This document shows positions 14,362 through 40,273 of a stretch of DNA of 64,000 nt, piece after piece (position 1 is the stretch's first letter; each line of letters begins with the position of its first letter). The notes below the pieces were generated by a model. The model did not search any database. It was given only the letters and a program-made list of their open reading frames with translations, and was not told the origin of the DNA. Source of the stretch: an uncultured Dongia sp. (GTDB lineage: Bacteria > Pseudomonadota > Alphaproteobacteria > Dongiales > Dongiaceae). The position numbers and the translations under genes were made by a program. The stretch lies in contig NZ_CAKZGO010000007.1 in assembly GCF_936916975.1 (NCBI RefSeq), forward strand, positions 186,001 through 250,000, given 5' to 3'.

Positions 14362-14388
14362 TATTGTGCCAGGATTTATCGACCGCCC

Positions 14389-15030: not shown

Positions 15031-15031
15031 G

Positions 15032-15766: not shown

Positions 15767-15795
15767 GGAGGGGGGTAGGAATCGACCGGGTGAAG

Positions 15796-16980: not shown

Positions 16981-17060
16981 TCCAAAACCCCAACAGTGAG
17001 GGCACTTGTTGATTTTTGTGCCGGTTAATTCCACCAAGAGGTAGAGTCCTGCTGAGACGC

Positions 17061-17080
17061 GGTCAAGGAAGGTCTTGACC
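17061..17080. promoter_or_regulatory. Dyad in aruH/gbuA intergenic region
   Basis: GGTCAAG (17061-17067) and CTTGACC (17074-17080) are perfect inverted repeats with a six-base spacer, inside the divergent promoter region. This is a candidate operator. Confidence 0.5.
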
Positions 17081-17095
17081 CGACAGTTGAAACGA

Positions 17096-17112
17096 GATCG
17101 GTTAAACCGATC
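17096..17112. promoter_or_regulatory. Second dyad in aruH/gbuA intergenic region
   Basis: GATCGGTT-A-AACCGATC is a perfect 8-1-8 palindrome 81 bases before the ureohydrolase start. It is a candidate binding site for an unidentified regulator of the divergent pair. Confidence 0.55.
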
Positions 17113-17192
17113 CGCATGTACCCAGCACCGCAGATCGGCGTTTCGCCTGCCCTAACGGCGTTTCGTCAGATACCTATGAAGTGAGGCAGATC

Positions 17193-24478: not shown

Positions 24479-24525
24479 GCTGTTAGTCTCGCCCCATCAA
24501 ATCACATCAGATGGGGAATACTCCG

Positions 24526-25608: not shown

Positions 25609-27687
25609 CTAACCCACTGCCGCCACAACCAACGCATCCACGGCCACGGCACCACGTTCGTTCACAATGAGCGGATTAACATCAATCTCCGCGATCAAGC
25701 CTTCAAGATCCGCGACCATCACCGAGAACGCTGCAAAGGCCTGCGCCAATCTCTCAATATCCGCTGGCTTCGCACCACGCTTGCCATCCAGCAGCGGCCG
25801 CAGTGACAGGCGGTCGATCTGCCGTCGCGCCTCGACCGCGCCGAAAGCCGGCAGGACGAAGCGCCGGTCAGCCATCATCTCGATCAGCACGCCACCGGCG
25901 CCAACGATGACGATCGGGCCGAATTGCTCGTCCTGGATCATGCCGAAGGAGATCTCGATCCCCTTCCCCGCCATCGGCATCAAGAGCACGCGGGCACCCA
26001 ACCGTGTCTTGAGGTCGGCATAGGCCACACCCAGTGCCGCCGCATCGGCCAGATTCAACTTCACACCGCCCACATCCGATTTATGCAGAATGCCCGGTTC
26101 CGCCGTCTTCATGACGACCGGATAGCCGATCTTCGCGGCGGCCGCTTGGGCCGTCTCCAAACTTTCGGCGTGGGCATGCGCGATCACCGGAACTCCGTAA
26201 TCCGCCAGCAAATCGAGCGCGTCGGCTTCGGACAACGCCATTCCTGGCGCCAACCGCTTCTGCCATTTGGCACGCAATCCAACCGGCGCCGCAGTAGGCC
26301 TATCGGCACCAAGCGCCTTACGGTCCCGCTCCGCCATCAGCTTCTTGACCAGGCCCAGCATATTCTCAACACCCGAGAGCACCGGCACGCCGTCATGCGA
26401 CAAGCGCACCGCGACATCGTCACTGGAATTGCTGGCGACATTGGTCGTCAGCATCACCAGCTTGGTGGTCCGTGCCCGCACGCGGCGCAAAATGTCTCCA
26501 TAGCCTTCGGTCAAATAGTAGCCATCCCGCGTCTCGACGCAGAGCGAGGCCATCGCGGTGTCGGGATCATCGACCAGGGCCTGCAGGCAATCCTCGAAGA
26601 TGCCCTCCCAATCGGCGCCCGTCCCCCAGGCATCGAGCGGATTGATCGGCTCCAACCCGTAATCCAGCCGCGCCGCAAGCTTATCGCGCGTCGCCTCGTT
26701 GATCTTCGCGAACGGCACGCCGGTCTCGATCCCCAGGTCCATCACCAATTCTCGGAAGCCGCCGGAATCATGCACCGTGGCGAGGCCGCCCTTGGCTAAC
26801 GGGCGATCGCCGGCCAGGAAATGAATCGCATTGCTGAGCGCATCCATATTGGCGACCTCGATGACGCCGTAATGATCGAACAGCGCCTGATAGGCCGCGT
26901 GGTTGCCGGCGATGGCGCCGGAATGGGAGACGGCAAGCGCTGCACTCTCCGCCGTGCGGCCGACCTTCAGGGCGACGACCGGAATGTTCTTCGCGCGCGC
27001 CTTGGCAAGCGACGCCTTGAAGCCCGCCGGATCGCGCACAGTTTCCAGGAACAGCGCCACCACTTTCGTTGCCGGAATATCGAGGGCAAAATCCATATAG
27101 GCGGCGACATCGGTTGCCAGCTCCTGCCCCGCCGACACGGCGAGGCTGAATCCCATGCGCTTGTCGTTGTGGCACAGCGCTGAAAAGGCCGAGCCGGAAT
27201 GTGTGATGAACGCGACGGACCCCTTGCGCAGCCAATCCGGCGGCGGGAAGCCGCAGACGCGCAGGCCGTAATCGAGGTGATAGAAGCCCATGCCGTTGCC
27301 GCCGCAGATCGCAATGCCGGCGGCCCTGGCTTTCATCGAGATCCGCTCGGTCAGCTTGGGTTCGGTATCGTTTTCCAGATAGCCGCTGGCAAAGATCGTG
27401 GCGGCGCCGATGCCGCATTTGATGATCTCGTCGAGCGCCGCTTCAAGTCGCGCATTGGCGATGCCCAGCACCGCCATGTCGACCACTTCGGGCAGATCGG
27501 AGAGCGATCTGTAGCATATCTGCCCGTCGATCTCGTCATAGCCCGGATTGACGAAATAAATCTTTGACGGCGTGCCCGCCATGCCCGTCGAGGTGATCAT
27601 CCCGCGCCCGACGGTCCCCGCCTTCGGACTGGCACCGACAAGCGCCACGCTCTTCGGCCGCAACAGCCGATCCAGTTTATGTGCCAT
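25609..27687 (-). CDS. NDP-forming acyl-CoA synthetase (fused alpha-beta)
   Basis: A 692-residue fused acetyl/acyl-CoA synthetase of the ADP-forming type. In order: a CoA-binding Rossmann domain (PKSVALVGASPKAGTVGRGM), succinyl-CoA-ligase-like domains with a phospho-histidine candidate in AVSHSGAIAGN, and a C-terminal ATP-grasp domain from about residue 475 (IGYPVVMKTAEPGILHKSDV). It joins a carboxylate to CoA, or makes ATP in reverse. Some relatives are protein acetyltransferases (Pat), but no GNAT domain is fused here. It lies downstream of the long TetR gene on the same strand, so it may be in its operon. Substrate unknown. Confidence 0.88.
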   Translation of the reverse strand: MAHKLDRLLRPKSVALVGASPKAGTVGRGMITSTGMAGTPSKIYFVNPGYDEIDGQICYRSLSDLPEVVDMAVLGIANARLEAALDEIIKCGIGAATIFASGYLENDTEPKLTERISMKARAAGIAICGGNGMGFYHLDYGLRVCGFPPPDWLRKGSVAFITHSGSAFSALCHNDKRMGFSLAVSAGQELATDVAAYMDFALDIPATKVVALFLETVRDPAGFKASLAKARAKNIPVVALKVGRTAESAALAVSHSGAIAGNHAAYQALFDHYGVIEVANMDALSNAIHFLAGDRPLAKGGLATVHDSGGFRELVMDLGIETGVPFAKINEATRDKLAARLDYGLEPINPLDAWGTGADWEGIFEDCLQALVDDPDTAMASLCVETRDGYYLTEGYGDILRRVRARTTKLVMLTTNVASNSSDDVAVRLSHDGVPVLSGVENMLGLVKKLMAERDRKALGADRPTAAPVGLRAKWQKRLAPGMALSEADALDLLADYGVPVIAHAHAESLETAQAAAAKIGYPVVMKTAEPGILHKSDVGGVKLNLADAAALGVAYADLKTRLGARVLLMPMAGKGIEISFGMIQDEQFGPIVIVGAGGVLIEMMADRRFVLPAFGAVEARRQIDRLSLRPLLDGKRGAKPADIERLAQAFAAFSVMVADLEGLIAEIDVNPLIVNERGAVAVDALVVAAVG

Positions 27688-27697
27688 CCCAGTTCAC

Positions 27698-27797
27698 TCC
27701 CCCCCTTCAGGGGGGAGGTCGGGAGGGGGGCCTGCCGGCGAACCCGGCACCACCCGTCACTTCGCCCCCACCCTGCCCTCCCCCTGAAGGGGGAGGG
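27698..27797. repeat. Paired REP-like element, family C
   Basis: Two inverted hairpin arms: CTCCCCCCTTCAGGGGGGAG with tail (27698-27730) and CCCTCCCCCTGAAGGGGGAG with lead (27765-27797). The architecture is the same as families A and B but the core differs. It sits between the tetR stop and the acyl-CoA synthetase start. Confidence 0.8.
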
Positions 27798-27804
27798 TTA
27801 CTTT

Positions 27805-28845
27805 CTAATCCCTCTTCCCCGCCAGCGTCGCCAACGCGGCCCTGTCCCGCATCGCCTGCTCCTGCGCATTGGCGAGCCTCGCCTCGAACAGGCGCTGCGC
27901 TTCCTCATGAATGGGGCCATAGACCTCCATCCACAATTGAGCGTCGGTGGCGACGATCAATCGCCCGACCTGCCACGAGGTCGGTTCCGCGCGGCCATCC
28001 AGCCAGCTCTCCAAAATCTTCACCGAGATGCCGGCCGCTGCCGCCAGGATCTCCCGGCGCAGCGGTCCCACCGGTTCCATGCGCTTGCGCAAGGCGGCGG
28101 CCAGGCGCGCGCGATGGGCGTTGCGGCCCTGCACTTCCTGGTCGATCGCCAGCACCACACCGTTATCATTGTCGCTCTTCGACTTCTTCACGCCACCCGC
28201 GAAATGCGCGGGGAAGACCGAGGCGAGATACTGCCGGCAGATGCGCTTGGCCTCGGACCGGTTGAAGGTCTTGGGCTCCATGAGGCAGTCGAACCACATG
28301 CCGTCGATCATCGCATTCAAACCAGTCGCGATGTCGGCAGGACTGACACCCTCATAGCCGCCTTCCTGGATGATGCGCTGGCACAGCGTCTCGGTCTGGG
28401 CGAGATAGTCCTGCTCCAGGCGCTGCACCACGTCGTGATAGGCCTGGTTGCCGCGCGCTTCTGCCCAGAACGCGTACCAGATCGAGACCTTCTCGACATT
28501 GCACACGGTGGGATGGAAATCAGCCTCGATCATGGCTTCAAGCCCGGCGGCCGGCGCCACCTTGCCCTTGTTGATCGCCGCCTGCCAGAAGGCCGAATAC
28601 TCCTCGGCAATCTGCTCCAAGGTCGCGATCAGCAGCTGTTCCTTGGACTTGAAGTAGAAATTGACGATGCCCGGCGACAGGCCCGCCTCGGACGCGACAT
28701 GGGTCAGAGTCGCATTGGCGTAGCCGACCCTCCCAATCGCGCGAATTGTCGCATCTATCAACTGCTTACGACGGACTTCCTTGACGGCTTCGGCCTTGGC
28801 CATTGGCGCTTTAACCTTTTCACTGCCACTTACGGGAATCGGCAT
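27805..28845 (-). CDS. Long BetI-like TetR regulator with extra C-terminal domain
   Basis: A 346-residue protein, far longer than the usual 190-220. The N-terminal TetR helix-turn-helix (RRKQLIDATIRAIGRVGYAN, then ASEAGLSPGIVNFYFKSKEQ) and the ligand domain (IWYAFWAEARGNQAYHDVV) resemble BetI. From about residue 255 there is an additional segment whose RREILAAAAGISVKILESWL reads like a second helix-turn-helix. ATG 28845 is used; 28803 is an alternative that removes 14 residues. It is divergent from the aminotransferase, and the motif TAAATGTTCATTCA at 28885-28898 between them is a probable operator. Confidence 0.82.
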   Translation of the reverse strand: MPIPVSGSEKVKAPMAKAEAVKEVRRKQLIDATIRAIGRVGYANATLTHVASEAGLSPGIVNFYFKSKEQLLIATLEQIAEEYSAFWQAAINKGKVAPAAGLEAMIEADFHPTVCNVEKVSIWYAFWAEARGNQAYHDVVQRLEQDYLAQTETLCQRIIQEGGYEGVSPADIATGLNAMIDGMWFDCLMEPKTFNRSEAKRICRQYLASVFPAHFAGGVKKSKSDNDNGVVLAIDQEVQGRNAHRARLAAALRKRMEPVGPLRREILAAAAGISVKILESWLDGRAEPTSWQVGRLIVATDAQLWMEVYGPIHEEAQRLFEARLANAQEQAMRDRAALATLAGKRD

Positions 28846-28884
28846 AACCTCATGATATCTTTAACTTTGCTGCGCTCGCAACAT

Positions 28885-28898
28885 TAAATGTTCATTCA
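28885..28898. promoter_or_regulatory. Candidate TetR operator, second copy of the flavoprotein-operon motif
   Basis: TAAATGTTCATTCA differs at 2 of 14 positions from TGAATGATCATTCA (38246-38259). It lies in the AT-rich gap between the divergent long tetR and aminotransferase genes. A further half site CATTCA follows at about 28945. Confidence 0.55.
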
Positions 28899-29037
28899 GT
28901 GATATTGTCATTTTCTGAATCGCATGATAGATTTTTTATACAAACATTCAATGACCGGACGGTAACAGGCGCGTGATTTCTGCCGAACCGGGACGCGGGA
29001 CTTCCCGCATACCTTTGAGACCAATGGAGATTTTCAC

Positions 29038-30408
29038 ATGACCACGATCAAAACAGATCGTCGCAAAATGGATAAGAGCCAGGCCCATTTCCAAGAGGCC
29101 ATCAAGCATATGCCGCTCGGTGTCAGCTCCAACTTCCGCTACTGGGGCGACGAGAACACGGTCTTCGTGAAAAAAGGTAAGGGCGCCCGCCTCTGGGACA
29201 TCGACGGCAACGAATACATTGACTACCGCCTGGGCTATGGCCCGGCGATTCTCGGCCATTGCAACGACATCGTCGACCAGGCCGCCCATGAGGCGCAATC
29301 GATCGGCACTGTCTTTGCGCTCGGCACCGAAAAGGAAGTCACCGTCGCCAAGCTGATCAAGGAGATGATGCCGGCTGCTGAGCTGGTGCGTTTCTCGAAT
29401 TCCGGCACCGAAGCGGTGATGGCCGCCTTGCGCCTCGCGCGCGGCTATACCGGCAAGGACAATTACGTGACGTTCGAGGGCTCCTATCACGGCCTGTTCG
29501 ACGCCACCATGTGGACCGCCGATCCCGAGGACATGAAGGATCAGAGCAAGGATCCGGCCGTCATTCCCTATGGCCTCGGCATTCCGGCTGCCGTCCGTCA
29601 GCTGTTCTGGCAGGTGCCGTATAACGACGCGCAGCGCCTCGAAGACGTGCTGAAGAAGAACCATGACACCATCGCCGCCGTGCTCATCGAACCGATCCTC
29701 GGCAATTGCTGCGGCATTCCCTCGAAGCCGGAATTCATCAAGGCCGTACGCGAACTCTGCACCCGCTACGGCGTGCTGATGATCGTCGACGAGGTGAAGA
29801 CCGGTTTCCGCGTCGCCAAGGGCGGCGCCCAGGAACTCTATGGCATCCAGGCAGACATCTTCACCGTGGCGAAGGCGATGGCCAACGGCTACCCGATCTC
29901 GGCGATCGGCGGCAAGGAAGAGATCCTGCGCAAATACGGCAAGGGCGTTGCCCATGGCGGCACCTACACCGCGCAAGCCATGAGCCTCGCCGCGGCGGAA
30001 GCTACCTTGACCATCCTCAAGGACACGACCGCGCTGGCCGATATCGCGAGCTACGGCCAGTCGATGCAGGACGGCATGCACAAGGTGCTGAGCAAACGCG
30101 GCATCCCGCACAGCTTCACCGGCCACCAGTCGATGTCCGGCCTGTTCTTCAGCGCCGAAGCGCCGACCACCTATCGCAACTGGAAGCTCTCCGACTACAC
30201 CTTCTACGACACCATGGCCGGCATCCTCATCGACATGGGTGTCATGTGCGAACCGGACAGCCGCGAACCCTGGTTCATCTCCTCGGCCCACGACAAGAAG
30301 TGTCTCGACGAGACCCTGTTGAAGTTCGAGGAAGCCGTCGACCTCACCCTCGACGAACTCGGCCAAGGCCGCGAGACCGAAGACAAGCTGATGCCAGGTA
30401 TTGGCTGA
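29038..30408 (+). CDS. Class III aminotransferase (GSAM-like)
   Basis: A 456-residue PLP enzyme of the class III family, closest in pattern to glutamate-1-semialdehyde aminomutase-like and beta-amino-acid aminotransferases (MPLGVSSNFRYWGDENTVFV, SNSGTEAVMAALRLAR). The PLP lysine is in FTVAKAMANGYPISAIGG, and the PLP-contacting Asp in IVDEVKTGFR. It moves an amino group from an omega- or beta-amino substrate to a keto acid. Start 29038 has GGAG nine bases upstream. It is not expected to be HemL because the context is catabolic. Probably controlled by the divergent TetR. Confidence 0.85.
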   Translation: MTTIKTDRRKMDKSQAHFQEAIKHMPLGVSSNFRYWGDENTVFVKKGKGARLWDIDGNEYIDYRLGYGPAILGHCNDIVDQAAHEAQSIGTVFALGTEKEVTVAKLIKEMMPAAELVRFSNSGTEAVMAALRLARGYTGKDNYVTFEGSYHGLFDATMWTADPEDMKDQSKDPAVIPYGLGIPAAVRQLFWQVPYNDAQRLEDVLKKNHDTIAAVLIEPILGNCCGIPSKPEFIKAVRELCTRYGVLMIVDEVKTGFRVAKGGAQELYGIQADIFTVAKAMANGYPISAIGGKEEILRKYGKGVAHGGTYTAQAMSLAAAEATLTILKDTTALADIASYGQSMQDGMHKVLSKRGIPHSFTGHQSMSGLFFSAEAPTTYRNWKLSDYTFYDTMAGILIDMGVMCEPDSREPWFISSAHDKKCLDETLLKFEEAVDLTLDELGQGRETEDKLMPGIG

Positions 30409-30441
30409 GTCATCGGCTGACCCTATCGACCTGAAGGCAGC

Positions 30442-30476
30442 AACGGCGCCGTGGCAATACGGCGCCGTTCTTGTTT
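30442..30476 (+). terminator. Terminator after aminotransferase gene
   Basis: AACGGCGCCGT (30442-30452) pairs with ACGGCGCCGTT (30459-30469) and is followed by the T-rich CTTGTTT. Confidence 0.75.
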
Positions 30477-30481
30477 GTAGT

Positions 30482-30628
30482 GAGGAGCAGGCCCTGATCG
30501 ATAAATTATCTGTGGTATGCGTCGCCCTCTTCGGCGTGCTCTTGTCCGGTGAACAATTGTCCATGACACCCTGGGCCGGCATCTCACTTATTGTCGGGAG
30601 CGCGGGATTGCTCGTGTTTCGCTCCTAA
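30482..30628 (+). pseudogene. Remnant of a DMT/EamA-family transporter
   Basis: About 48 codons without a proper start encode LSVVCVALFGVLLSGEQLSM, then TPWAGISLIVGSAGLLVFRS and a stop. This is the pattern of the last two membrane helices of EamA/DMT permeases (usually about 290 residues). The rest of the gene is missing, and a terminator lies directly before it. I read it as the 3' end of a deleted transporter gene. Confidence 0.6.
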
Positions 30629-30800
30629 GCATCGGCGCGCTTCTTCATCAGCGCACATCCCTGTCGTCATAAGCGAAATTGCCGATAATTTTCGCGATGT
30701 AATATCTGCCAAAATGCTGAAGAACATGAGCATTTGACCCACCAGCAAGCGCCTGGAACTATCGACTCCCATCACGTCGACAAAGTCAGGGGAGCTCGTC

Positions 30801-32828
30801 ATGGCAGAGATCATCGGCACCAACGGCGACGACTACATTTCCTACGGCAGCAATTTGGCGGACATCATCCGCGGCCTCGGTGGCAACGATATTCTTTGGG
30901 GCGGCGAGCGCGGTGACATCCTCGACGGCGGCGATGGCATCGACACCGCCGACTATCGCTATGGGCCAGGCGCCGTCTTTGTCGACATGCGCCTCGCCGT
31001 GCAAACCGGCATCGGCGATGCGGCCGGCGACCAACTGATCTCCATAGAGAATCTGGCTGGATCTGCCTATGCCGATACGCTCATCGGCGATGACGGCAAC
31101 AACACGATCCGCGGTGGCAAAGGTGCCGACCAGATCGACGGCAGTGGTGGCACCGACCGCGCCAGCTATGCCCACTCCGCTTTCGCTGTAGATGTCGACC
31201 TCGCACGGGCCGTGCAGCTGGGCGGCGATGCCCAGGGGGATACACTTGCGAACATCGAGAATATTACTGGCTCCGATCATAATGACCGCCTTGCGGGCAA
31301 TGATCTCAGAAACGAGTTCAGCGGCGGTCTCGGCGCTGATCAGATCGATGGCCGCGGTGGCCGCGACTTCGTCGATTACCGCGGTTCAAGCGGTGTCGAT
31401 ATCGATCTTGCCCGTGCCACGCAATCCGGCGGCCATGCCGAGGGCGACCAACTGGTCTCCATCGAGAACGTTCGCGGCAGCACCGCTGACGACCGCATCG
31501 TCGGCACCAGCGGCGCCAACGAACTCATCGGCGATGCCGGCAACGATTATCTCGACGGCGCAGGCGGCAACGACCTCCTCAAAGGCATGACCGGCGACGA
31601 CACCATCGCCACCCGCAGTCACGGCTTTGCCGATGGCGGCGCCGGCTTCGACACGCTGGTGGTGCAATTCGACGAACGCGACCCCTATGACGGGGTCGAA
31701 GTCTATATCGACAGCACGGGCGCGCTGTCGAGCCGCTATTACAGCGATTACGACCCGCCTGCCGGCTACAATCTCGGCGCCGTCAATTTCGAGCGGGTCG
31801 ATCTCACCGGCACGCAATGGTCCGACTTCCTGATGGGCACCAGCGGCGGCGACGTGTTGCGCGGCGGCGGCGGTGACGATTATCTCCTGGGCGGCATCGG
31901 CGATTCCCTCAATGGCGGCGACGGCCGTGATGCGGTCGAACTGCGTTACGACCCGAACACGACCGAGGACATCTTCGTCGACCTCACAACGAGCTTCGCC
32001 ACGGGCGTCAATGTCCTCGTCAATTTTGAAGACCTCACGGTCACCACGGCTCGCGGCGGCGACCACATCATCGGCGGCACCGAAATGAACTACGTCAACA
32101 CGCAAGGTGGCGACGATATCGTCCAGCTCTCGGGGCACCACAACTACGCCGATCTCAATCCCGGCGATTTCGACGACTTCGACACCTATGTCGGTGGCGA
32201 TGGCGTCGACCAGGTCTGGGTCGGCAGTCGCGGCTATGTCAATGGTGGGGGTGGCACCGAAGACGTCGTCGGCCTGCGCTTCTATGGCAGCGATGCGGTG
32301 ACCTTCAATGCCGCCGGCAATTATTCCAGCACCGGCCTCACCTTCGAGAATTTCGAAACCTTCAACATCTACCGCGAGAATACGACGGCCGGCGATACGC
32401 TCCACCTCGGCGAAGGCCACGACTTCGTCTCCGGTGGCGGCGGCGATGACCTCATCGACGGGCATGGTGGTTACGACATTTTGCGCGGCGGGCTCGGCCA
32501 TGACACATTGGCAGGCGGCACCGGCGACGACCAGCTTTACGGCGACCAGGGCCACGACAATCTCCGCGGCGATGCCGGCTCGGATCGCTTCTATTTCAGC
32601 CAGGGACAGGACGTCGTCACCGATTTCAGCGCTGCCGACGGCGACATGATCATCATCGGGGCAGATTTCCAGGATGACGACCACGACAGCTTTGCCGACC
32701 TGATGGCCCACGCCCAGGACACAGTGGCAGGCCTGCTGCTCACCAGCAGCGACAGTGCCTCGACGCTATTGCTGGCCGGGGTCACCAGGTCCGATCTGAC
32801 GGCAGAGAATGTCGACTTTCTGGTGTAG
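30801..32828 (+). CDS. RTX calcium-binding repeat protein
   Basis: A 675-residue acidic protein with many RTX-type nonapeptides (GGxGxDxUx), for example GGNDILWGG, GGDGIDTAD, GDAGNDYLDG, GGLGHDTLAGG. Such repeats wind into beta-rolls when they bind calcium outside the cell. The repeats come in blocks separated by beta-rich stretches. There is no N-terminal signal peptide, and the C-terminus (SDLTAENVDFLV) fits an uncleaved type I secretion signal. No HlyB/HlyD/TolC genes are within the window. No enzymatic domain is visible. Start 30801 has GGGGAG upstream. Confidence 0.88.
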   Translation: MAEIIGTNGDDYISYGSNLADIIRGLGGNDILWGGERGDILDGGDGIDTADYRYGPGAVFVDMRLAVQTGIGDAAGDQLISIENLAGSAYADTLIGDDGNNTIRGGKGADQIDGSGGTDRASYAHSAFAVDVDLARAVQLGGDAQGDTLANIENITGSDHNDRLAGNDLRNEFSGGLGADQIDGRGGRDFVDYRGSSGVDIDLARATQSGGHAEGDQLVSIENVRGSTADDRIVGTSGANELIGDAGNDYLDGAGGNDLLKGMTGDDTIATRSHGFADGGAGFDTLVVQFDERDPYDGVEVYIDSTGALSSRYYSDYDPPAGYNLGAVNFERVDLTGTQWSDFLMGTSGGDVLRGGGGDDYLLGGIGDSLNGGDGRDAVELRYDPNTTEDIFVDLTTSFATGVNVLVNFEDLTVTTARGGDHIIGGTEMNYVNTQGGDDIVQLSGHHNYADLNPGDFDDFDTYVGGDGVDQVWVGSRGYVNGGGGTEDVVGLRFYGSDAVTFNAAGNYSSTGLTFENFETFNIYRENTTAGDTLHLGEGHDFVSGGGGDDLIDGHGGYDILRGGLGHDTLAGGTGDDQLYGDQGHDNLRGDAGSDRFYFSQGQDVVTDFSAADGDMIIIGADFQDDDHDSFADLMAHAQDTVAGLLLTSSDSASTLLLAGVTRSDLTAENVDFLV

Positions 32829-32835
32829 GGTTCGC

Positions 32836-32985
32836 CCCCTCTCCCCCACCCTCCCCCACCGCCGACGAATGTCGGCCTTCGCCGACTGCGGGGGGAGGGA
32901 GTTCTACCGAGTTCGCTCAGGCGATTGCGTTCAAGTCCGCTAGGATTCCCTCCCCCCAACGTGGGGGAGGGTTAGGGAGAGGGGG
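32836..32985. repeat. Paired REP-like element, family B copy 1, interrupted by a D repeat
   Basis: The right arm (32950-32985, core CTCCCCCCAACGTGGGGGAG) is identical over 36 bases to the right arm of copy 2 at 45585-45620. The left arm starts CCCCCTCTCCCCCACC but is split in its loop by the 28-base D repeat (32864-32891) before resuming GGGGGGAG. The right arm supplies the last five codons and stop of the tetR gene at 32972. Confidence 0.85.
32864..32891 (+). repeat. D repeat copy 1
   Basis: GACGAATGTCGGCCTTCGCC followed by GACTGCGG; 25 of 28 bases match copy 2 at 33729-33756. The two are direct repeats on either side of the BetI-like tetR gene. Confidence 0.75.
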
Positions 32986-33637
32986 TCTTCTCGCTATCCA
33001 GCTTGTTCAATTTCTCCCGCTGAACATAATACAGATCAAGCAGCTTGATGAACGCCATGCAGGACCGCACGGCATCCTTGGTCTTGAAGGTCTTTGGGTA
33101 AAGCAGCGCCTGCAGCCAGAATCCGTCGATCATTGCTGAAAGTGCGCCGGCCACACGAATGGCGACCTTCTTCGCGTCCTTGATCGCCTCGGGTTGGGAG
33201 ATGATCAGATTATAGATCTGATGCTCCAACTCCTTGACATAGCGCCGCTCGACGGCCGTCGCAGCATCGCGGAACTTGTCGCGCAACTGCGGGTCCGACC
33301 AGAAGCTGAACCACACAGCCAGCTTCGCGCTGGTAAAGACGTCGCGGTCGAAATAGGCCTCGATCATCGCCTGCAGCCGCAGCCAGGGATCAAGCGGTGC
33401 CGCTTTGACGCGGACGTTCCAGACCAGCTGATATTCCTCGGCAAGATATTTGAAAACCTCCTCGAACAGCTTGTCCTTGCTCTTGAAATGGAAGTTCATC
33501 AAGCCGATCGACACGCCCGCCGATTTGGCCACCCGGCTCACTGTCGTGCCGTGATAGCCAAAGGCGGCGATGACCGCGATGGTCGCCTCGACCAGCTCTT
33601 TCTTGCGATTGCTGCGGATGGGAATGTTCTTGGCCAT
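32972..33637 (-). CDS. BetI-like TetR regulator
   Basis: A 221-residue TetR regulator. The helix-turn-helix is ELVEATIAVIAAFGYHGTTV then AKSAGVSIGLMNFHFKSKDK. The ligand domain contains KLAVWFSFWSDPQLRDKF and IDGFWLQALLYPKTF, characteristic of BetI and related sensors of quaternary amine pathways. Start 33637 follows GGTAGG. It lies 139 bases downstream of the GcvT-like gene on the same strand, separated by a large inverted repeat. It is a candidate regulator of the two-flavoprotein operon through the 38242-38282 dyad. The last codons lie in repeat B. Confidence 0.87.
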   Translation of the reverse strand: MAKNIPIRSNRKKELVEATIAVIAAFGYHGTTVSRVAKSAGVSIGLMNFHFKSKDKLFEEVFKYLAEEYQLVWNVRVKAAPLDPWLRLQAMIEAYFDRDVFTSAKLAVWFSFWSDPQLRDKFRDAATAVERRYVKELEHQIYNLIISQPEAIKDAKKVAIRVAGALSAMIDGFWLQALLYPKTFKTKDAVRSCMAFIKLLDLYYVQREKLNKLDSEKTPSP

Positions 33638-33653
33638 TTAACCTACCGTCATG

Positions 33654-33722
33654 GTCCGCGAAGGCGGACCACCCACGAGTTTGTCGGCCACTGAAGATAG
33701 CAATTCGTGGGTGGTCCGCCCC
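33654..33722. repeat. Nested inverted repeat upstream of tetR
   Basis: GGCGGACCACCCACGA (33665-33680) and TCGTGGGTGGTCCGCC (33707-33722) are perfect 16-base inverted repeats. A second hairpin TGGTCCGC/GCGGACCA (33654-33661, 33666-33673) overlaps the left arm. It may act as terminator of the upstream operon or be a small mobile repeat. Confidence 0.75.
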
Positions 33723-33728
33723 AGCTGA

Positions 33729-33756
33729 CGAATGTCGGCATACGCCGACGGCGGAC
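33729..33756 (+). repeat. D repeat copy 2
   Basis: GACGAATGTCGGCATACGCC followed by GACGGCGG. It contains the small palindrome GTCGGC-ATAC-GCCGAC-like stem seen in copy 1. Confidence 0.75.
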
Positions 33757-33776
33757 TATGACGATTTGGAGTCACC

Positions 33777-34967
33777 TCACACAATCTCCTTCTTCCGGGG
33801 CGGATCGAAGAACATCCGGTTCCGGGTCCAGCACTTCACCATGCTGCGCTCGATCTTCTTCTCCTTGGGATACCAGATCTCGATCCACATTTCAGTACCG
33901 GGCTTCGTGAAGGCCGGCGGGATCTGCGCAAAGGCGATGTTCTTCTTCAACAGGGGCGACCACATGGCCGACGTGGTGAGGCCCAGCTCCTTGGTGCCCT
34001 TCTGATCGGCGTAGAGGAAGGCGCCTGGTGCCGGCTTGCGACCCTGGATCTCGATACCTGAGAGGATGAAGCGCGACGATCCTTCAGCCTTCTCCTTCTG
34101 CAGTGCGCGCTTACCCACAAAATAGGCATCCTTCTTCAGTGCCACCGCCCAGCCGATCCCGGCCTCGATAGGCGAGATACGCTGCGTCGGCCGGACCGCA
34201 TGATGCGAGCCGATGTAATCCGCATCGACCAGGATGAAGCCGGCCTCGATCCGCGTCATCTCCAATGCATGGCCACCCATCGGCGCGATCTTGTGGGGAT
34301 CGCCCAGGCGAAACAGGCTTTCCCATAGCCAGGGCGCATCGTGCGGCTTCACCCAGATCTCATAGCCGAGATCACCGGTAAATCCGGCGCGGTCGATGCG
34401 CAGCCAATGCCCGTCGATACTCGTCTCCATGATGCCGAAATGCGGCAGCTTGCCGATCGCTTGCACACCCAACACTTCCAGAATGGCCCGCGAATTCGGT
34501 CCCTGCAGCGACAGCCCCGCCAGTTGATCAGAGATCTCCTCGATCTCAACCGAGAATCCATAGGCGCTCTCATTCAACCAATGCAACTGGTGCAGCGCCG
34601 CATTGAGCAGAAAGTCGTTCGGCCCCAGGCGGAACAGCGTCCCCTCCTCGATCATGCGGCCGTCATCGTCGCACCAGGCGGTATAAGCGACATTCATCGG
34701 CGCCACCTTGGTAAGGTCGCGCGTCACCAGGTAATTGGCGAACTTGGCCGCATCCTTCCCCTTGATCGCATATTTGATCAGCGGCGAGACGTCATAGACC
34801 GTGGCACCGTTGCGGGTCGCCATGTACTCCGACTGTGTGGAATCATAGAAGGCCGGCGAATAATAGCCCTGCCAGCGAATCCAACCTGCGCCATGCATCA
34901 TGGCTTCCATGGCATCATGGAACGGCGTCTTCTTCAGGAACGGCTTCAGATGCTGGACATGGGTCAT
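33777..34967 (-). CDS. GcvT-like aminomethyltransferase/demethylase family protein
   Basis: A 396-residue protein of the folate-binding GcvT family, which includes glycine-cleavage T-protein, the folate domains of dimethylglycine/sarcosine oxidases and DMSP demethylase. Signatures are DVSPLIKYAIKGKDAAKFAN, FTGDLGYEIWV and GIGWAVALKKDAYFVGKRAL. At the place of the usual IDD motif it has MIEEGTLFRL. No H- or P-protein gene is nearby, so it is not the glycine-cleavage T-protein. It probably moves a methyl group from an N- or S-methyl compound to THF. The start overlaps the preceding stop by one base (TGATG). Confidence 0.83.
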   Translation of the reverse strand: MTHVQHLKPFLKKTPFHDAMEAMMHGAGWIRWQGYYSPAFYDSTQSEYMATRNGATVYDVSPLIKYAIKGKDAAKFANYLVTRDLTKVAPMNVAYTAWCDDDGRMIEEGTLFRLGPNDFLLNAALHQLHWLNESAYGFSVEIEEISDQLAGLSLQGPNSRAILEVLGVQAIGKLPHFGIMETSIDGHWLRIDRAGFTGDLGYEIWVKPHDAPWLWESLFRLGDPHKIAPMGGHALEMTRIEAGFILVDADYIGSHHAVRPTQRISPIEAGIGWAVALKKDAYFVGKRALQKEKAEGSSRFILSGIEIQGRKPAPGAFLYADQKGTKELGLTTSAMWSPLLKKNIAFAQIPPAFTKPGTEMWIEIWYPKEKKIERSMVKCWTRNRMFFDPPRKKEIV

Positions 34968-36571
34968 CAGGCAGCTCCCTTCCTGGCGGTGCTCTTTCGG
35001 ATATCCTTCAAGATCTCGCGCGCGGCATTGGCGCCTGCCGCCCCTGAGACGTTGCCCCCTGGATGCGCGCCCGCGCCGCACAGCCACAACCCCGGCAGCG
35101 GCATCTTGTATTGCTGGAACGATGCTGCCGGTCGCAGGAAGAACACCTGATCCAGGGTCACTTCGCCCTGATGCCACTGGCCGCCAGAGAGATTGAACTT
35201 GGTTTCGAGATCATGCGGCGTCAGCACCTCCGACGCCGTCACCTGATTGCGCACGCCCGGCGCCACCTGATCGAGCACGTTCAACGTGCGCTCTAGCACC
35301 TGCGACCGCGCCGCATCCTGCGTCGTCTCGCGCAGTTTATAAGGCGCGTATTGGCACAGGATCGACGCCACATGCTTGCCTGACGGTGCCAGACTTGGAT
35401 CGGTCAATGTCGGAATGACGATCTCCAGCGCCGGATTGTCGGAGACGCGGCCATACTTCGCACAGTCAAAGGCGCGCTCGACATAATTGGTCGACGGTGC
35501 CACCACCATGCGCCCCTGCGCCTGCTTGAACACATCCGGCAGGCTGTCCAGCGCCAGATGCACCTTGGCAACACAGCCGTTCATCCGGAGGTGTCGCATG
35601 CGGCGCAGGAATTCGGTGTCAAGATTGCCGGGTTCGACCAGATGCAACAGCGTCCGTTGCGGATCGGCACTCGACGCCACGATCGGCGCGCGGATTTCCT
35701 CGCCATTCGCCAGCACCACGCCGACGGCCACTTCCTTCTCGATCAGAATATGGCCGACCGGCGCCTGCGTGCGAATGGTGACACCGGCAGCCTTCGCCGC
35801 CCCGAGCAGCGCGTCCACCACGGCGCCCATGCCGCCTTGCGGCAGGAACAATCCACCCTGCCCGTGCTTCACATTCATCGAGGCCAGGCGATACAGCAGG
35901 TTGAAGACGGTGTTGGGTGAGCGCGGCCCGAGATAGACGCCGAGCGTCGCCTCGAATCCCAGCAACCCTTTGATGATATCGCTTTCGAAGAAGTCGTTGG
36001 CGAGGTCGGCGACATTGATGGTGAGGATACGGGACATTTCCAGCATGTCCTTCTTGCCCATCAGGCGCAGCTGCACCGCGAACATGCCAAGCGCCAGCTT
36101 GGTCTGGAAATCATTGGCGGCCGGCGACGGGCTGGGGGGTGTCTTCAGCAGGAAACTGCCGAGTGCGCCCGCCAGCTTCACCAAGCGTTCCATGCGCGGA
36201 TGATAGGCCTGGGCATCGGCCGGCGAGAACCGCGCCAGCGAGGCCTGGGTCGTTGCCTTGTCGTCGGTGATGTCGAGCCGACCTCCACCTGGCAGCATGG
36301 CGGAGGTACCGATACGGTGCTGCGTGGCCTGCAGGCCGTGGGATTCCAGGCCGAGATCGCTGATCACCTTGGGATGCAGCGCATGCAGGATATGGGCAAC
36401 GGCCGACGTGCGATAGCCCTTGGCGAATTCCCGCGTCTGCGCGGCGCCGCCTGGCTGCTCGCCCGCTTCCAGCACCAGCACCTTCTGCCCTGCCTTGGCG
36501 AGATAGGTCGCGGTGACCAGGCCGTTATGGCCGGCGCCGATGACGATGACGTCGTAGTTCTGGGCGCTCAT
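34967..36571 (-). CDS. Phytoene-desaturase-like FAD oxidoreductase (second of pair)
   Basis: A 534-residue flavoprotein of the CrtI/PYROXD2-like family. The N-terminal Rossmann motif is DVIVIGAGHNGLVTATYLAK, and the C-terminal FAD motif LCGAGAHPGGNVSGAAGANA. Despite the family name no carotenoid genes are near. The neighbours suggest oxidation of an amine or related substrate. It starts at the TGATG overlap with the gene before it, and its own stop overlaps the GcvT-like gene in the same way. It is a diverged paralogue of its operon partner. Confidence 0.85.
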   Translation of the reverse strand: MSAQNYDVIVIGAGHNGLVTATYLAKAGQKVLVLEAGEQPGGAAQTREFAKGYRTSAVAHILHALHPKVISDLGLESHGLQATQHRIGTSAMLPGGGRLDITDDKATTQASLARFSPADAQAYHPRMERLVKLAGALGSFLLKTPPSPSPAANDFQTKLALGMFAVQLRLMGKKDMLEMSRILTINVADLANDFFESDIIKGLLGFEATLGVYLGPRSPNTVFNLLYRLASMNVKHGQGGLFLPQGGMGAVVDALLGAAKAAGVTIRTQAPVGHILIEKEVAVGVVLANGEEIRAPIVASSADPQRTLLHLVEPGNLDTEFLRRMRHLRMNGCVAKVHLALDSLPDVFKQAQGRMVVAPSTNYVERAFDCAKYGRVSDNPALEIVIPTLTDPSLAPSGKHVASILCQYAPYKLRETTQDAARSQVLERTLNVLDQVAPGVRNQVTASEVLTPHDLETKFNLSGGQWHQGEVTLDQVFFLRPAASFQQYKMPLPGLWLCGAGAHPGGNVSGAAGANAAREILKDIRKSTARKGAA

Positions 36572-38226
36572 CACACCACCCCATGCTTGAAGTCGCGCAG
36601 CATTTCGCGGGCCGCATTGGCGCCGGGCGCCCCCATGACGCCGCCGCCGGGATGCGTGCCCGATCCGCACATGTAGAAATTATCGAACGGCCCTCGATAT
36701 TGGCCAAGGCCCGGGAATGGCCGGTTGAACAGCATCTGATCGAGGGTGAGTTCACCCTGGAAGATATTGCCTTCGGTTAGGCCTACTTCATTCTCGATGT
36801 CCCACGGCGTGCGCGTCTGGCAATGCAGGATCAGGTTCTTGAAGCCCGGCGCATTCATCTCGATGGTGTCGAGCACATCCTTCTCGAAGGCTGATTTCAT
36901 CTCCGGCGTCCAAGGCTGTTCGCCCAGTTTATAAGGGACGTATTGCACGAAGACCGACATGAAATGCTTGCCCGGCGGGGCCATCGTGGGATCGACCGTC
37001 GTTGGGATGACGATGTCGAGGAAGGGCCGCTTCGACCACGACCCGTATTTGTAATCGTCATAGGCGCGCTCGATGTAGTCGAAATCGCCGCCGATATCGA
37101 TCGTTCCCCAGGCGGATTCCTTGGGCAGACCGGCGAATTGCGGCAGGCCGTCGAGCGCGATGTTCAGCTTGCCCGAAGAGCCACGGATCTTGAAGTTCTT
37201 CGCATAAGCGTGGATATCTGGATCGATACTGTCGAGGTCCGATTTCTCGATCAGCTTCAGATAGGTGCGCTTAGGGTCGGCATTGCTGACGACGGTGCGC
37301 GCGTAAATCTCCTCGCCATTGGCGAGCGTCACGCCGACCGCCTTGCCGCCTCGGATGATGACCTTGGCGACCTCGGCATTGGTGCGGATCTCGACGCCGG
37401 CTTCCGTGGCGGCCGAGGCAATCGCCTTCGAGACCGATCCCATCCCGCCGCGCGCAAAGCCCCAGGCGCCGATCTGACCGTCGACTTCACCCATATAATG
37501 GTGCAGCAGCACATAGGCGGTACCCGGCGAATAGGGCCCCAGTGCCGTGCCGATGATCGAAGAGGCGGCCGAGAAACCCTTCCATTTCGGATGTTCGAAA
37601 TATTCGTCGAGGAAATCGCCGATCGACATGGTCCAGAAGCGGATGATCTCATACATCTGCTTCTCACCCATCCGCCCGAATTCGCGGCCGATCTTCAGCA
37701 GACCTTCAAGATCGTTGCGCTTGCCCCAGGGATTGATCTTGTTCTGCGCGAATGGGTTCAACTTGGTGGGATCGGGTGGTGTCACCATCAGCAGCGGCTT
37801 GATGAAACGGCACTGGCGGCTGATCTCGGCCGCATAATGATCATAGGCTTCCGCATCCTTGATCGAATGCCGGCGCAGTGACTCGCGCGTGCGGTCATGA
37901 TCCGAATAAGTGACGATTCCCTCGCCCTCATGATTGGGCGATGAATTGATCTCGTAGGGAATGACCTGCAATCCATGGCGCGGCAGATCGAGGAACCTGA
38001 AAATCTCCGGCCGCAACAGCGAGCACACATAGGAGCAGGTCGAGTAGGTGAAGCCCGGATAGATCTCCTCCGACATCGCCGCACCACCGACCTTGTGATA
38101 GCGCTCGAGGACGAGGACCTTCAGTTTATTCTTCCCCTCCTTCTCGCCGCCCTTGGCGAGATAGGCGGCGGTGACGAGGCCGTTATGACCGCCGCCGATG
38201 ACGATCGCGTCGTATTTGGTTGCCAT
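36571..38226 (-). CDS. Phytoene-desaturase-like FAD oxidoreductase (first of pair)
   Basis: A 551-residue flavoprotein of the same family. The FAD Rossmann motif is DAIVIGGGHNGLVTAAYLAK, with a Lys/Glu-rich insertion just after, and the C-terminal motif MCGSGTHPGGGVMGAPGANA. Start 38226 (MATKYDAIV) was chosen over the upstream ATG because the family begins there and the longer form would run into the operator. It is the first gene of a three-gene operon headed by the 41-bp dyad. Paired paralogous flavoproteins may form a heterodimer or act in sequence. Confidence 0.86.
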   Translation of the reverse strand: MATKYDAIVIGGGHNGLVTAAYLAKGGEKEGKNKLKVLVLERYHKVGGAAMSEEIYPGFTYSTCSYVCSLLRPEIFRFLDLPRHGLQVIPYEINSSPNHEGEGIVTYSDHDRTRESLRRHSIKDAEAYDHYAAEISRQCRFIKPLLMVTPPDPTKLNPFAQNKINPWGKRNDLEGLLKIGREFGRMGEKQMYEIIRFWTMSIGDFLDEYFEHPKWKGFSAASSIIGTALGPYSPGTAYVLLHHYMGEVDGQIGAWGFARGGMGSVSKAIASAATEAGVEIRTNAEVAKVIIRGGKAVGVTLANGEEIYARTVVSNADPKRTYLKLIEKSDLDSIDPDIHAYAKNFKIRGSSGKLNIALDGLPQFAGLPKESAWGTIDIGGDFDYIERAYDDYKYGSWSKRPFLDIVIPTTVDPTMAPPGKHFMSVFVQYVPYKLGEQPWTPEMKSAFEKDVLDTIEMNAPGFKNLILHCQTRTPWDIENEVGLTEGNIFQGELTLDQMLFNRPFPGLGQYRGPFDNFYMCGSGTHPGGGVMGAPGANAAREMLRDFKHGVV

Positions 38227-38241
38227 GGAATCCCGCCCTCG

Positions 38242-38282
38242 AAACTGAATGATCATTCAATTATTGAATGCTTATTCAGTTT
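38242..38282. promoter_or_regulatory. 41-bp near-perfect dyad, operator of flavoprotein operon
   Basis: Outer arms AAACTGAAT (38242-38250) and ATTCAGTTT (38274-38282), and inner arms ATTCAAT and ATTGAAT around 38261, form one long dyad broken only at two four-base spacers. It holds two 14-base sites, TGAATGATCATTCA (38246-38259) and TGAATGCTTATTCA (38265-38278). It lies 16 bases upstream of the first flavoprotein start and so probably overlaps its promoter. Confidence 0.75.
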
Positions 38283-38381: not shown

Positions 38382-39452
38382 ATGAAGGTTAATATCTGGC
38401 TGGCGACCACGGCCCTGTTCTGCCTCACCCTGGTGGCCGACCCCGCGCTGGCCAAGCAGAAGAATCCCCTGCAACCACCCCCGCCGGCGGTGCCGGTGGG
38501 TGACGTCGATTCAGTCCCCCTCGATGCCCCTGCCCCGCCCGTGCTGGAAGGTACCGGCCAGGCGATCGATGGTGATGAGATTGCGATTGGCGATGTCATT
38601 GTCAGGCTGGATGGAATCGCAGCGCCCCTCATGACGGTGCCATTGGGGCCAGAAGCGCGCGTGGCGCTGCAAGCGTTGATCGATGGCCAGCGCCTGACCT
38701 GCGATGTCATTGACCGCGGTATCGATGCGCAGCATCTCTCCGGCGTGTGCAAGATCGAGGATGATGATGTCGCGGAAGCGATGCTGGCTGGCGGCATGGC
38801 GGCGGTTTATCGCCCGTCGGTCAATACCGATGCGGCCTCGCGCGAACGGGCGGCGCGTTATGATGCAGCGGAGACCGAAGCGCGCGGACGCGATCTTGGC
38901 CTCTGGACCAAGCCGCCGGCAGCGGAGGAAATTGCTGTCGAACCCGCACCGGTCGTCGAAGCGACGATGGACCGTGATCTGCTGCGCGGCTGGTTGATCC
39001 AGGCGCCGTTCCTCCTCTTCCTTGGCCTGGCAGGTATCGTCGCATTGATCGCAGCCGGCAGCCGCAAGCGCGCCCGCGATGTGCAGGCCGAGGCCGATAT
39101 GCAGGCTCTGCTGGCCCTGCTGCTGGGCGAAGTGCTGGCCATTCGGGCGGCGGCGCAAGCGGCGTTCGATACCACAGCACCTCTCATTCAGGATCTGCCG
39201 ATACCCACGGCGCAGCTGGCGGGCCTTGCCTTGCCGCCGGCCACGGTGTTCGAGGCCAATGCGGCACGGCTGAGCTCGCTGCCGCGCGAGGTATCAGTCG
39301 ATCTGGTGCAGTTCCATGCTCGCCACCGGGTGGTAAGCCGCATCCTGCTGCAAGCCTCTGCCCTGCGCTGCGAACAGTTGCGGGCATTCCTGGATGCGCT
39401 GATCCAGGCCGCCGACGAACCGATGAACCGCGCGGAAAAGCTGCTGGCCTAA
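38382..39452 (+). CDS. Membrane protein with SNase-like domain
   Basis: A 356-residue protein. A signal peptide or anchor (LATTALFCLTLVADPALA) precedes a Pro-rich linker. A thermonuclease/SNase-like beta-barrel follows at about 62-175 (IAIGDVIVRLDGIAAP ... AEARGRDLGLW). A membrane helix at about 208-228 (APFLLFLGLAGIVALIAA) and an Ala/Leu-rich cytoplasmic helical tail complete it. The catalytic Arg/Glu of true nucleases are not evident, so it may be non-catalytic. Start 38382 has AGGAA upstream. The stop overlaps the convergent permease gene by four bases. Function unknown. Confidence 0.7.
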   Translation: MKVNIWLATTALFCLTLVADPALAKQKNPLQPPPPAVPVGDVDSVPLDAPAPPVLEGTGQAIDGDEIAIGDVIVRLDGIAAPLMTVPLGPEARVALQALIDGQRLTCDVIDRGIDAQHLSGVCKIEDDDVAEAMLAGGMAAVYRPSVNTDAASRERAARYDAAETEARGRDLGLWTKPPAAEEIAVEPAPVVEATMDRDLLRGWLIQAPFLLFLGLAGIVALIAAGSRKRARDVQAEADMQALLALLLGEVLAIRAAAQAAFDTTAPLIQDLPIPTAQLAGLALPPATVFEANAARLSSLPREVSVDLVQFHARHRVVSRILLQASALRCEQLRAFLDALIQAADEPMNRAEKLLA

Positions 39453-40237: not shown

Positions 40238-40273
40238 GCCAGCGCCGCTCCTTAGATCTTATCTAGAAAAAAC

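Follow-up and report, generated by a model that had tools for sequence, protein, structure and literature searches.

Introduction

Dimethylglycine dehydrogenase/oxidase (DMGDH/DMGO) and heterotetrameric sarcosine oxidase couple the oxidation of amines by a flavin to a GcvT-type folate-binding unit. The TMAO demethylase Tdm has a folate domain in its C-terminal part and is one long chain without flavin. The gamma-N-methylaminobutyrate oxidase (MABO) of Arthrobacter pAO1, a single chain of the DMGO type, acts in nicotine breakdown, where its demethylation of an N-methyl amino acid that stems from a larger amine is coupled to tetrahydrofolate (THF). The human protein PYROXD2 belongs to the CrtO-like flavoproteins and, to our knowledge, has no known reaction.

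Here we describe a locus in a 64-kb stretch of DNA from an uncultured Dongia sp. (the window), in which the genes of two flavoproteins, FAD1 and FAD2, and of a GcvT-like protein form a trio. The trio resembles DMGDH/oxidase and sarcosine oxidase in its predicted flavin-dependent amine oxidation and its homologous GcvT-type unit; unlike them, it has in place of a DAO-type domain two paralogues of the CrtO/amine-oxidase fold, each on its own chain, and its folate unit is a polypeptide of its own. It also differs from the single chains of Tdm and of MABO, to which its predicted chemistry can be likened. FAD1 and FAD2 may be homologues of PYROXD2.

Results

Profile searches recovered at the locus all of the genes that a first-pass annotation had named there, an aminotransferase, an acyl-CoA synthetase, two flavoproteins and a GcvT-like enzyme. 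The trio begins with FAD1 (36571-38226, minus strand; PF01593, 53 bits), followed by its paralogue FAD2 (34967-36571, minus; PF01593, 92 bits; about 40% identity to FAD1), both CrtO/amine-oxidase-fold flavoproteins, and by the GcvT-like folate-binding protein (33777-34967, minus; PF01571, 186 bits; PF08669, 36 bits). We chose the three starts within longer open frames (that of FAD1 runs on to 38256) and, given these starts, FAD1 and FAD2, and FAD2 and GcvT, overlap at start and stop, the pattern of a translationally coupled operon. A short BetI-like TetR regulator (32972-33637, minus; PF00440, PF13977) lies 3' of GcvT on the same strand. A longer one with a C-terminal extension (27805-28845, minus; PF00440, PF13977) is divergent from a class III aminotransferase of the glutamate-semialdehyde-aminomutase/GntE-like type (29038-30408, plus; PF00202, 240.6 bits). 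The long and short TetRs score 135.1 and 121.3 bits with the BetI model NF001978 (cut-off 118), and 131.2 and 124.5 bits with TIGR03384 (cut-off 201.3). The acyl-CoA synthetase does follow the long TetR on its strand, as had been annotated, and is an NDP-forming acyl-CoA ligase (25609-27687, minus; PF13380, PF13607, PF13549) with its CoA-binding, succinyl-CoA-ligase-like and ATP-grasp_5 domains all in a single chain.

Several other assignments were rejected. The aminotransferase scores 480.8 bits with the model of the guanitoxin transaminase GntE (NF041362), under its cut-off of 525. Two further sets of genes were weighed as possible members of the system: the RTX-repeat gene at 30801-32828 has no counterpart in the trio loci, and close relatives (73-90%) of the amino-acid ABC genes at 39449-41074 occur only in loci L026, L027, L028 and L031, with distant ones (about 30%) in L024.

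The best named HMM for both flavoproteins is NCBIfam CrtO, at 267 bits for FAD2 and 256 bits for FAD1 against a cut-off of 1000, and the crtI family model gave 147 and 118 bits against 238; with curated cut-offs missed by so far, membership among these carotenoid enzymes was rejected. The AlphaFold model of FAD1 (pLDDT 81.8) comes closest in fold to carotenoid desaturases and to an unnamed oxidoreductase, with NicA2 and monoamine oxidases next, and the FAD2 model (pLDDT 85.8) has the same nearest folds, monoamine oxidase and putrescine oxidase included. The best stretches aligned to the DAO-type model (PF01266) span only residues 6-50 and 7-103 of the window flavoproteins. The best solved relative of the GcvT-like protein is the C-terminal part of TMAO demethylase (191 bits, compared with 111 bits for DMGDH), although with 255 bits against the NF053776 cut-off of 1100 it was not accepted as a TMAO demethylase. 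At the position of D96 of the T. maritima enzyme, which we take to be the catalytic aspartate of GcvT, Glu is present in 6 of 33 aligned sequences (the window and L026-L030), and the others shown have Asp.

To follow the neighbourhood in other genomes we used 80 related contigs and a set of 85 loci; the counts are not independent, since FAD1 served to retrieve the loci and many of these are closely related. The gene neighbourhood is conserved in both Alpha- and Gammaproteobacteria: FAD2 comes after FAD1 in 73 of the 74 testable loci, and GcvT follows in 70 of 70, so that the co-occurrence elsewhere on which the original proposal depended is found. An orthologue of the aminotransferase (at least 50% identity) is present in 14/85 loci; in 11, which come from both alpha- and gammaproteobacteria, it immediately precedes FAD1 on the same strand. 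The ligase is present in 20/85 loci, directly after GcvT in 16, and six loci (L031, L032, L033, L052, L069 and L089) combine the trio with both. The aminotransferase and ligase genes lie on opposite strands, a few kb apart, in 15 of 17 genomes of the family. In an even sample of 190 genomes of the class, the aminotransferase was found in 4 and FAD1 in 8, the 4 all being among the 8; three of the four, among them the own genome, belong to one genus, and in the fourth (G032) the two genes are 62 bp apart. The aminotransferase/ligase block and the trio are separable, however, being on different contigs or more than 800 kb apart in G008-G014, and G015 has the aminotransferase and ligase without FAD1.

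Other genes recur beside the trio. Among the 55 loci of at least 19 kb, in counts that have no background rate behind them, we found a class III aminotransferase of any type in 43, a PotA-like protein in 41, a binding protein in 41, a Rieske oxygenase in 36, GS in 20 and an acyl-CoA dehydrogenase in 15. An aldehyde dehydrogenase cluster is present in 7 trio loci, and no BetA-type protein was found among the trio-neighbour clusters scanned with Pfam, which are part of all clusters. The polyamine ABC binding protein of the window and the binding proteins of the relatives are not orthologues. By record title, the module occurs in marine SAR92/Porticoccaceae, OM182 and Halieaceae, and in rhizobia and Shinella.

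Two operator sites closely precede the chosen FAD1 start, an exact match to TGAATGATCATTCA at 38246-38259 and TGAATGCTTATTCA, with 2 mismatches, at 38265-38278, 19 bp from the first. At up to 2 mismatches, TGAATGATCATTCA has 3 matches in the window where 0.35 are expected, a number reached by 0 of 100 shuffles. This specific core was used in place of the looser pattern TGAATGNNCATTCA, which at 2 mismatches is not above chance in the window (3 matches, 2.66 expected), and was checked by shuffles, by the reversed pattern and by 300 control palindromes; in the own genome, counting both strands, the reversed pattern has 1 match and the operator 13. The third match in the window, TAAATGTTCATTCA (28885-28898, 2 mismatches), is the 12-of-14 match previously noticed between the divergent long TetR and aminotransferase genes. 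It is weak alone, because the TGAATGNNCATTCA count is not unusual, and is backed by sites at a similar distance in relatives.

The operator is a real conserved motif. It is found at up to 2 mismatches in 11 of 16 FAD1 promoters of the family (expected 0.0), and several relatives have a second copy with the same 19-bp step. Outside the Dongia-like set it is found in 39 of 77 trio leaders, where the 300 control palindromes average 0.1 and reach 9 at most. It is absent from the other 38 of these leader regions, including all ten loci titled Mesorhizobium. The rhizobial Rieske genes are preceded by it in 14 of 15 cases, the marine-type ones in 1 of 28, and the rhizobial-type aminotransferases in 6 of 26 (one control palindrome reaches 8). 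The best other match in the own genome is again a double site with the 19-bp step (C47:10464-10496, 0 and 1 mismatch), which marks a flavoenzyme of the histamine/trimethylamine dehydrogenase type; all 4 orthologues of this amine dehydrogenase have the operator and all 8 more distant homologues are without it. A shared predicted operator is well supported for the trio and the amine dehydrogenase. Four further places with 1 mismatch (on C19, C20, C22 and C38), whose genes were judged only by first residues and by BLAST against the neighbourhood ORFs, adjoin no relative of the trio, aminotransferase, Rieske oxygenase or transporter in that comparison. C19 gave a 30% match to an aldehyde dehydrogenase cluster, and C22 other weak matches.

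In the aminotransferase promoters, the operator is found at up to 2 mismatches in 5 of 17 family genomes, mostly as a variant: the best operator-like site starts with TAAAT, 126-166 bp upstream, in 11 of 17, whereas the FAD1 promoters usually have TGAA. Given this difference, the two paralogous TetRs may both be involved rather than a single one. Related regulators appear to control the genes through one conserved DNA motif. Of the single regulon first proposed, the conserved neighbourhood and the operator are borne out; the separability of the two blocks and the variant operator of the aminotransferase speak against it.

The amine dehydrogenase, like the Rieske oxygenase and the polyamine-type transporter of the relatives, had escaped the first reading of the window. 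It is encoded elsewhere in the own genome and belongs to the histamine/trimethylamine dehydrogenase family (634 and 524 bits). In alignments it shares with these enzymes the segment that we take to contain the 6-S-cysteinyl-FMN cysteine and a CIGCNIC cluster, presumably the 4Fe-4S cysteines of the CxGCNxC segment. Unlike trimethylamine dehydrogenase (TMADH), it has alignment gaps at Trp264 and Trp355, which form the substrate bowl of TMADH, and its substrate therefore probably differs. The best solved relative of the rhizobial Rieske protein is carnitine monooxygenase, and two Rieske representatives score 275.7 and 124.8 bits against the GbcA cut-off of 670. The marine binding protein of the trio loci is PotF-like.

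Discussion

Taken together, these protein families and their arrangement make it probable that the locus is a regulon under TetR control for the catabolism of an N-methylated amine, whose carbon and nitrogen would pass into metabolism. The likeliest substrate is a methylated polyamine or a polyamine-derived betaine. The best reading of the sequences is that catabolism would proceed through a flavin/folate N-demethylase built on CrtO/amine-oxidase-fold flavoproteins, not on the dimethylglycine dehydrogenase type. FAD1 and FAD2, probably as a heteromeric amine oxidase or dehydrogenase, would convert an N-methyl group to an iminium, and the GcvT-like subunit would bind THF and trap the carbon in the form of 5,10-methylene-THF, the way that dimethylglycine dehydrogenase and heterotetrameric sarcosine oxidase do. 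The class III aminotransferase would then remove the demethylated primary amine, and the resulting carboxylic acid would be activated to its CoA ester by the NDP-forming ligase for breakdown of the acyl-CoA dehydrogenase type. The amine dehydrogenase, presumably co-expressed through the same operator, could provide a further amine oxidation, while in relatives a Rieske oxygenase may serve as the starting enzyme for quaternary amines and a polyamine-type ABC transporter may import the compound. The route suggested at first, combining deamination, FAD oxidation, folate-dependent demethylation and CoA activation, thus fits the protein families as far as N-demethylation, deamination and CoA activation go; its order and substrate we infer. 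Points against this reading are the unlinked blocks, the variant aminotransferase operator, the leader regions and marine-type Rieske genes that lack the motif, the Glu at the catalytic position of the window's GcvT-like protein and the non-orthologous polyamine binding protein. Neither this gene set nor its chemistry was found under a named pathway among the literature matches listed (titles and abstract openings), in agreement with the first-pass annotation.

Four other explanations were weighed. The trio might simply replace dimethylglycine dehydrogenase in the known glycine betaine pathway, as part of ordinary betaine, dimethylglycine and sarcosine degradation, which would suit the kinship of the GcvT domain with DMGDH and sarcosine oxidase, the BetI-like regulators and the GbcA-like Rieske proteins of relatives. 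We consider this quite improbable, given that FAD1 and FAD2 differ from the DAO-type flavoproteins of that pathway, that the Rieske representatives are far below the GbcA cut-off and that the marine binding protein is PotF-like; glycine, moreover, ought not to require a dedicated class III aminotransferase or a CoA ligase. A division into two independent systems, in which the long TetR would control the aminotransferase and ligase and the short one the demethylase, with operators alike only through TetR paralogy, is unlikely: it would account for the unlinked blocks in G008-G014, the first block alone in G015 and the operator variants, but not readily for the alpha- and gammaproteobacterial loci with the aminotransferase orthologue directly before FAD1, or for those with the ligase directly after GcvT.

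Guanidino compounds, for example methylated arginines, would be the substrates if the nearby DDAH-like, agmatinase-like and GntE/GntC-like genes belonged to the pathway. The window does contain two DDAH/arginine-deiminase-like genes (24511-25458 and 9441-10445) and an agmatinase-like one (17181-18158), the second DDAH-like gene has a 47% relative next to the trio in L065 and L066, and agmatinase relatives occur in five loci. Such genes are nevertheless rare in the 55 trio loci that span 19 kb or more (DDAH2 in 2, agmatinase in 3) and those of the window have no preceding operator match at up to 2 mismatches, making this proposal very unlikely. That FAD1 and FAD2 are enzymes of carotenoids or other isoprenoids, with the GcvT-like gene incidental, is scarcely credible: CrtO is the best named HMM of both and a carotenoid desaturase the closest fold, but the CrtO and crtI scores are far under their cut-offs, GcvT follows in every testable locus and the recurrent neighbours are amine genes.

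Returning to the flavin/folate N-demethylase, we tentatively propose, as possible rather than probable, that the trio represents a new class, in which a PYROXD2/CrtO-type flavoprotein heterodimer would deliver the carbon of the methyl group to a folate-binding subunit on a separate chain, acting on methylated polyamines or methyllysine-derived betaines in marine and soil bacteria. If so, this would be a flavin/folate demethylase architecture without the known DAO-type flavoprotein, the CrtO/PYROXD2-type family would gain a reaction outside carotenoids, and human PYROXD2, through its putative homology, would gain a testable function. Because the module is present in marine groups, rhizobia and Shinella, it may be a widespread, unrecognised sink for methylated amines in the nitrogen and one-carbon cycling of ocean and soil. 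Culturable bacteria would also be available for assigning a reaction to a family whose putative human member tracks methyllysine levels. In one study, plasma N6-methyllysine has its strongest genetic link to a variant of PYROXD2, and the entries for this locus also include dimethyl- and trimethyllysine, N-methylpipecolate and N-acetyl-isoputreanine (PMC8109053).

Conservation of the flavoprotein-GcvT trio

All of the genes named in the first-pass annotation were located in the window. The paralogous CrtO/amine-oxidase-fold flavoproteins FAD1 (36571-38226, minus strand) and FAD2 (34967-36571, minus strand) and the GcvT-like protein (33777-34967, minus strand) are encoded by three genes that are joined by start/stop overlaps when starts are chosen inside their longer open frames; a shorter BetI-like TetR gene follows (32972-33637, minus strand). 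In the other block, a longer BetI-like TetR gene (27805-28845, minus strand) is divergent from the class III aminotransferase gene (29038-30408, plus strand), and the NDP-forming acyl-CoA ligase gene (25609-27687, minus strand) comes next after it on the same strand, where the annotation had placed it. The two blocks are separated by an RTX calcium-binding repeat protein gene (30801-32828) with no obvious tie to either.

The neighbourhood analysis that had been suggested for this trio shows it conserved elsewhere. The source genome is Dongia-like, FAD1 relatives with 94-99% identity occurring on contigs titled Dongia mobilis, Rhodospirillaceae and Proteobacteria. Among the best 80 of 407 relatives kept from an orthologue scan of genome contigs, FAD2 lies within 250 bp after FAD1 in 73 of the 74 loci of sufficient length (the gap is slightly above 250 bp in the exception, L059) and GcvT is next in line in all 70 testable loci. 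Plasmid records gave 29 matches, and five of these records, one unannotated, brought the total to 85 loci. In an even sample of 190 genomes of the class, where scoring covered the 7 or 8 best candidates of each genome, FAD1 was present in 8 and the aminotransferase in 4, all among these 8 and three of them from one genus. No description of this gene set was found in the literature searched, whose coverage mostly excludes subscription papers and preprints, in line with the earlier statement that no named pathway with it was known.

The trio probably works like a flavin/folate N-demethylase, to judge from its sequences. The folate portion of TMAO demethylase is the closest relative of the GcvT-like protein among solved structures, followed by GcvT, DMGDH and sarcosine oxidase; counting against this reading, the position aligned with D96 of the T. 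maritima enzyme, which we take to be the catalytic aspartate of GcvT, is a glutamate in 6 of 33 sequences (the window and L026-L030, Dongia-like loci). The trio differs from the DMGDH/sarcosine oxidase family in that its flavoproteins fail that family's flavoprotein test. Neither FAD1 (all 17 models) nor FAD2 (best 25 of 67 models) reached an NCBIfam cut-off. Their predicted folds (pLDDT 81.8 and 85.8, respectively) are closest to carotenoid desaturases, then NicA2, monoamine oxidases and putrescine oxidase, and neither alignment shows any variation at the glycines and glutamate of the FAD motif.

A conserved operator and the extent of the proposed regulon

An exact copy of the operator core TGAATGATCATTCA lies at 38246, and copies with two mismatches lie at 38265 and 28885, the last being the site reported earlier between the long TetR and aminotransferase genes. 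These three matches compare with 0.35 expected, and none of 100 shuffles reached three; a looser pattern was no more frequent in the window than by chance. Genome-wide, 13 rows (both strands) had at most one mismatch to TGAATGNTCATTCA, versus 1 for the reversed pattern. The best site outside the window is a double site on another contig (C47), its two copies 19 bp apart as in the window, at the start of a gene encoding a flavoenzyme of the histamine/trimethylamine dehydrogenase family. This amine dehydrogenase retains the FMN-cysteine segment and iron-sulphur cysteines in alignment; it differs from TMADH in that the two tryptophans presumably forming part of the TMADH substrate pocket align to gaps.

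Across genomes of the GTDB family, allowing up to two mismatches, the operator lies upstream of FAD1 in 11 of 16 (expected 0.0) and, in 5 of 17, of the aminotransferase (expected 0.05). All 4 orthologues of the amine dehydrogenase (71-100% identity) have it upstream, and none of the best dehydrogenase homologues does in the 8 genomes where these are only 51-57% identical. In 11 of 17 genomes, the best aminotransferase site starts with TAAAT and lies 126-166 bp ahead of the gene; FAD1 sites mostly start with TGAA. We take the aminotransferase-promoter site as real, but the long TetR may be its cognate regulator. Outside the Dongia-like loci (L026-L031), the operator was found in 39 of 77 trio leader regions, 10 of them exact (300 control palindromes: mean 0.1, maximum 9); the 38 leaders lacking it include all ten loci titled Mesorhizobium. 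It also precedes 14 of 15 rhizobial-type Rieske genes, 1 of 28 marine-type Rieske genes and 6 of 26 rhizobial-type aminotransferase genes, the last count not exceeding the highest control palindrome (8).

A single regulon spanning both blocks gains partial support from the aminotransferase and ligase, which adjoin the trio in some other lineages. At 14 of the 85 loci there is an aminotransferase with 50% or higher identity to that of the window, and in 11 of them it immediately precedes FAD1 in the same orientation (gaps of 27-351 bp); the other three are Dongia-like. The ligase is present at 20 of 85 loci, directly after GcvT in 16 (12 of them SAR92/Porticoccaceae); of the remaining four, one is Dongia-like, two are members of the family in which the ligase gene is divergently oriented, and one is a match of only 30% identity. 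In L033, from the window's family, ligase, long TetR, aminotransferase and trio form a single block, into which a Rieske gene is inserted in L032 of the same family, and aminotransferase, trio and ligase are consecutive in L052, L069 (whose Paceibacterota label is probably a binning error) and L089 from other lineages. Against a joint regulon, the aminotransferase and ligase, which 15 of 17 family genomes carry on opposite strands within a few kb of each other, are separated from the trio in genomes G008-G014, and G015 (99% complete) has both without FAD1.

Proposed route and substrate

Given the enzyme families found, the likeliest route would begin with import of an amine and, where a Rieske oxygenase is present, demethylation of a quaternary amine by this enzyme. 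FAD1 and FAD2 would then oxidise N-methyl groups stepwise, with the GcvT-like subunit passing the methylene to THF, before the amine is removed by the aminotransferase or amine dehydrogenase and the resulting acid is CoA-activated. Polyamine-type transporters and polyamine-like enzymes adjoining the trio suggest that the substrate may be a methylated polyamine or a polyamine-derived betaine. Human PYROXD2, a flavoprotein probably of the same CrtO-like family as FAD1 and FAD2, offers a supporting lead for a methylated amine through its association with methyllysine. A PYROXD2 variant accounts for about 50% of the variance in plasma N6-methyllysine, and dimethyl- and trimethyllysine, N-methylpipecolate and N-acetyl-isoputreanine are further metabolites listed with the locus (PMC8109053).

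At the 55 loci spanning 19 kb or more, many of them closely related, neighbours counted by similarity, with no background rate, were TetR (45), class III aminotransferases of any type (43), PotA-like ATPase (41), binding protein (41), Rieske oxygenase (36), glutamine-synthetase-like protein (20), methyltransferase (19), DAO oxidase (17), acyl-CoA dehydrogenase (15) and ligase (15). The marine-group binding protein is PotF-like (330 bits, below the cut-off of 636), and the glutamine-synthetase-like protein scores 204 bits for GlnA and 194 bits for gamma-glutamylputrescine synthetase, both under the cut-offs. For the rhizobial Rieske enzyme, the closest match is carnitine monooxygenase (over residues 20-218, 115.6 bits); the rhizobial and marine enzymes both fall far below the GbcA cut-off.

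Other genes near the trio and in the window

The SAM-dependent methyltransferase (L099:9056-9841 and other rhizobial loci, 19 of the 55 long loci in all), often between TetR and FAD1, is surprising for a demethylation cluster. A conserved protein of 80-100 aa encoded directly 3' of GcvT (L095:14382-14642 and 21 more loci, mostly rhizobia and Shinella), a representative of which had no Pfam match, is possibly a small accessory subunit.

A second amine locus in the window (9441-18161) contains a DDAH/arginine-deiminase-like gene, a polyamine-type ABC transporter, a TetR, a metallohydrolase-like gene, a GntC-like class I aminotransferase and an agmatinase-family gene; relatives of its DDAH-like and agmatinase-like genes adjoin the trio in L065 and L066. 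Another DDAH/arginine-deiminase-like amidinohydrolase (24511-25458) lies immediately left of the ligase and had no counterpart in the 85 trio loci. A formate-tetrahydrofolate ligase (7549-9228; 926 bits, above cut-off) would be a fitting, if unlinked, outlet for THF-bound one-carbon units. The amino-acid ABC permease and binding protein genes at 39449-41074 have no directly adjoining ATPase gene, and Dongia-like loci are the only ones in which close relatives of them stand beside FAD1. At 47666-50811, acyl-CoA dehydrogenase and SDR genes lie with a third gene lacking an NCBIfam match at 1e-20, and acyl-CoA dehydrogenases repeatedly adjoin the trio in other lineages.
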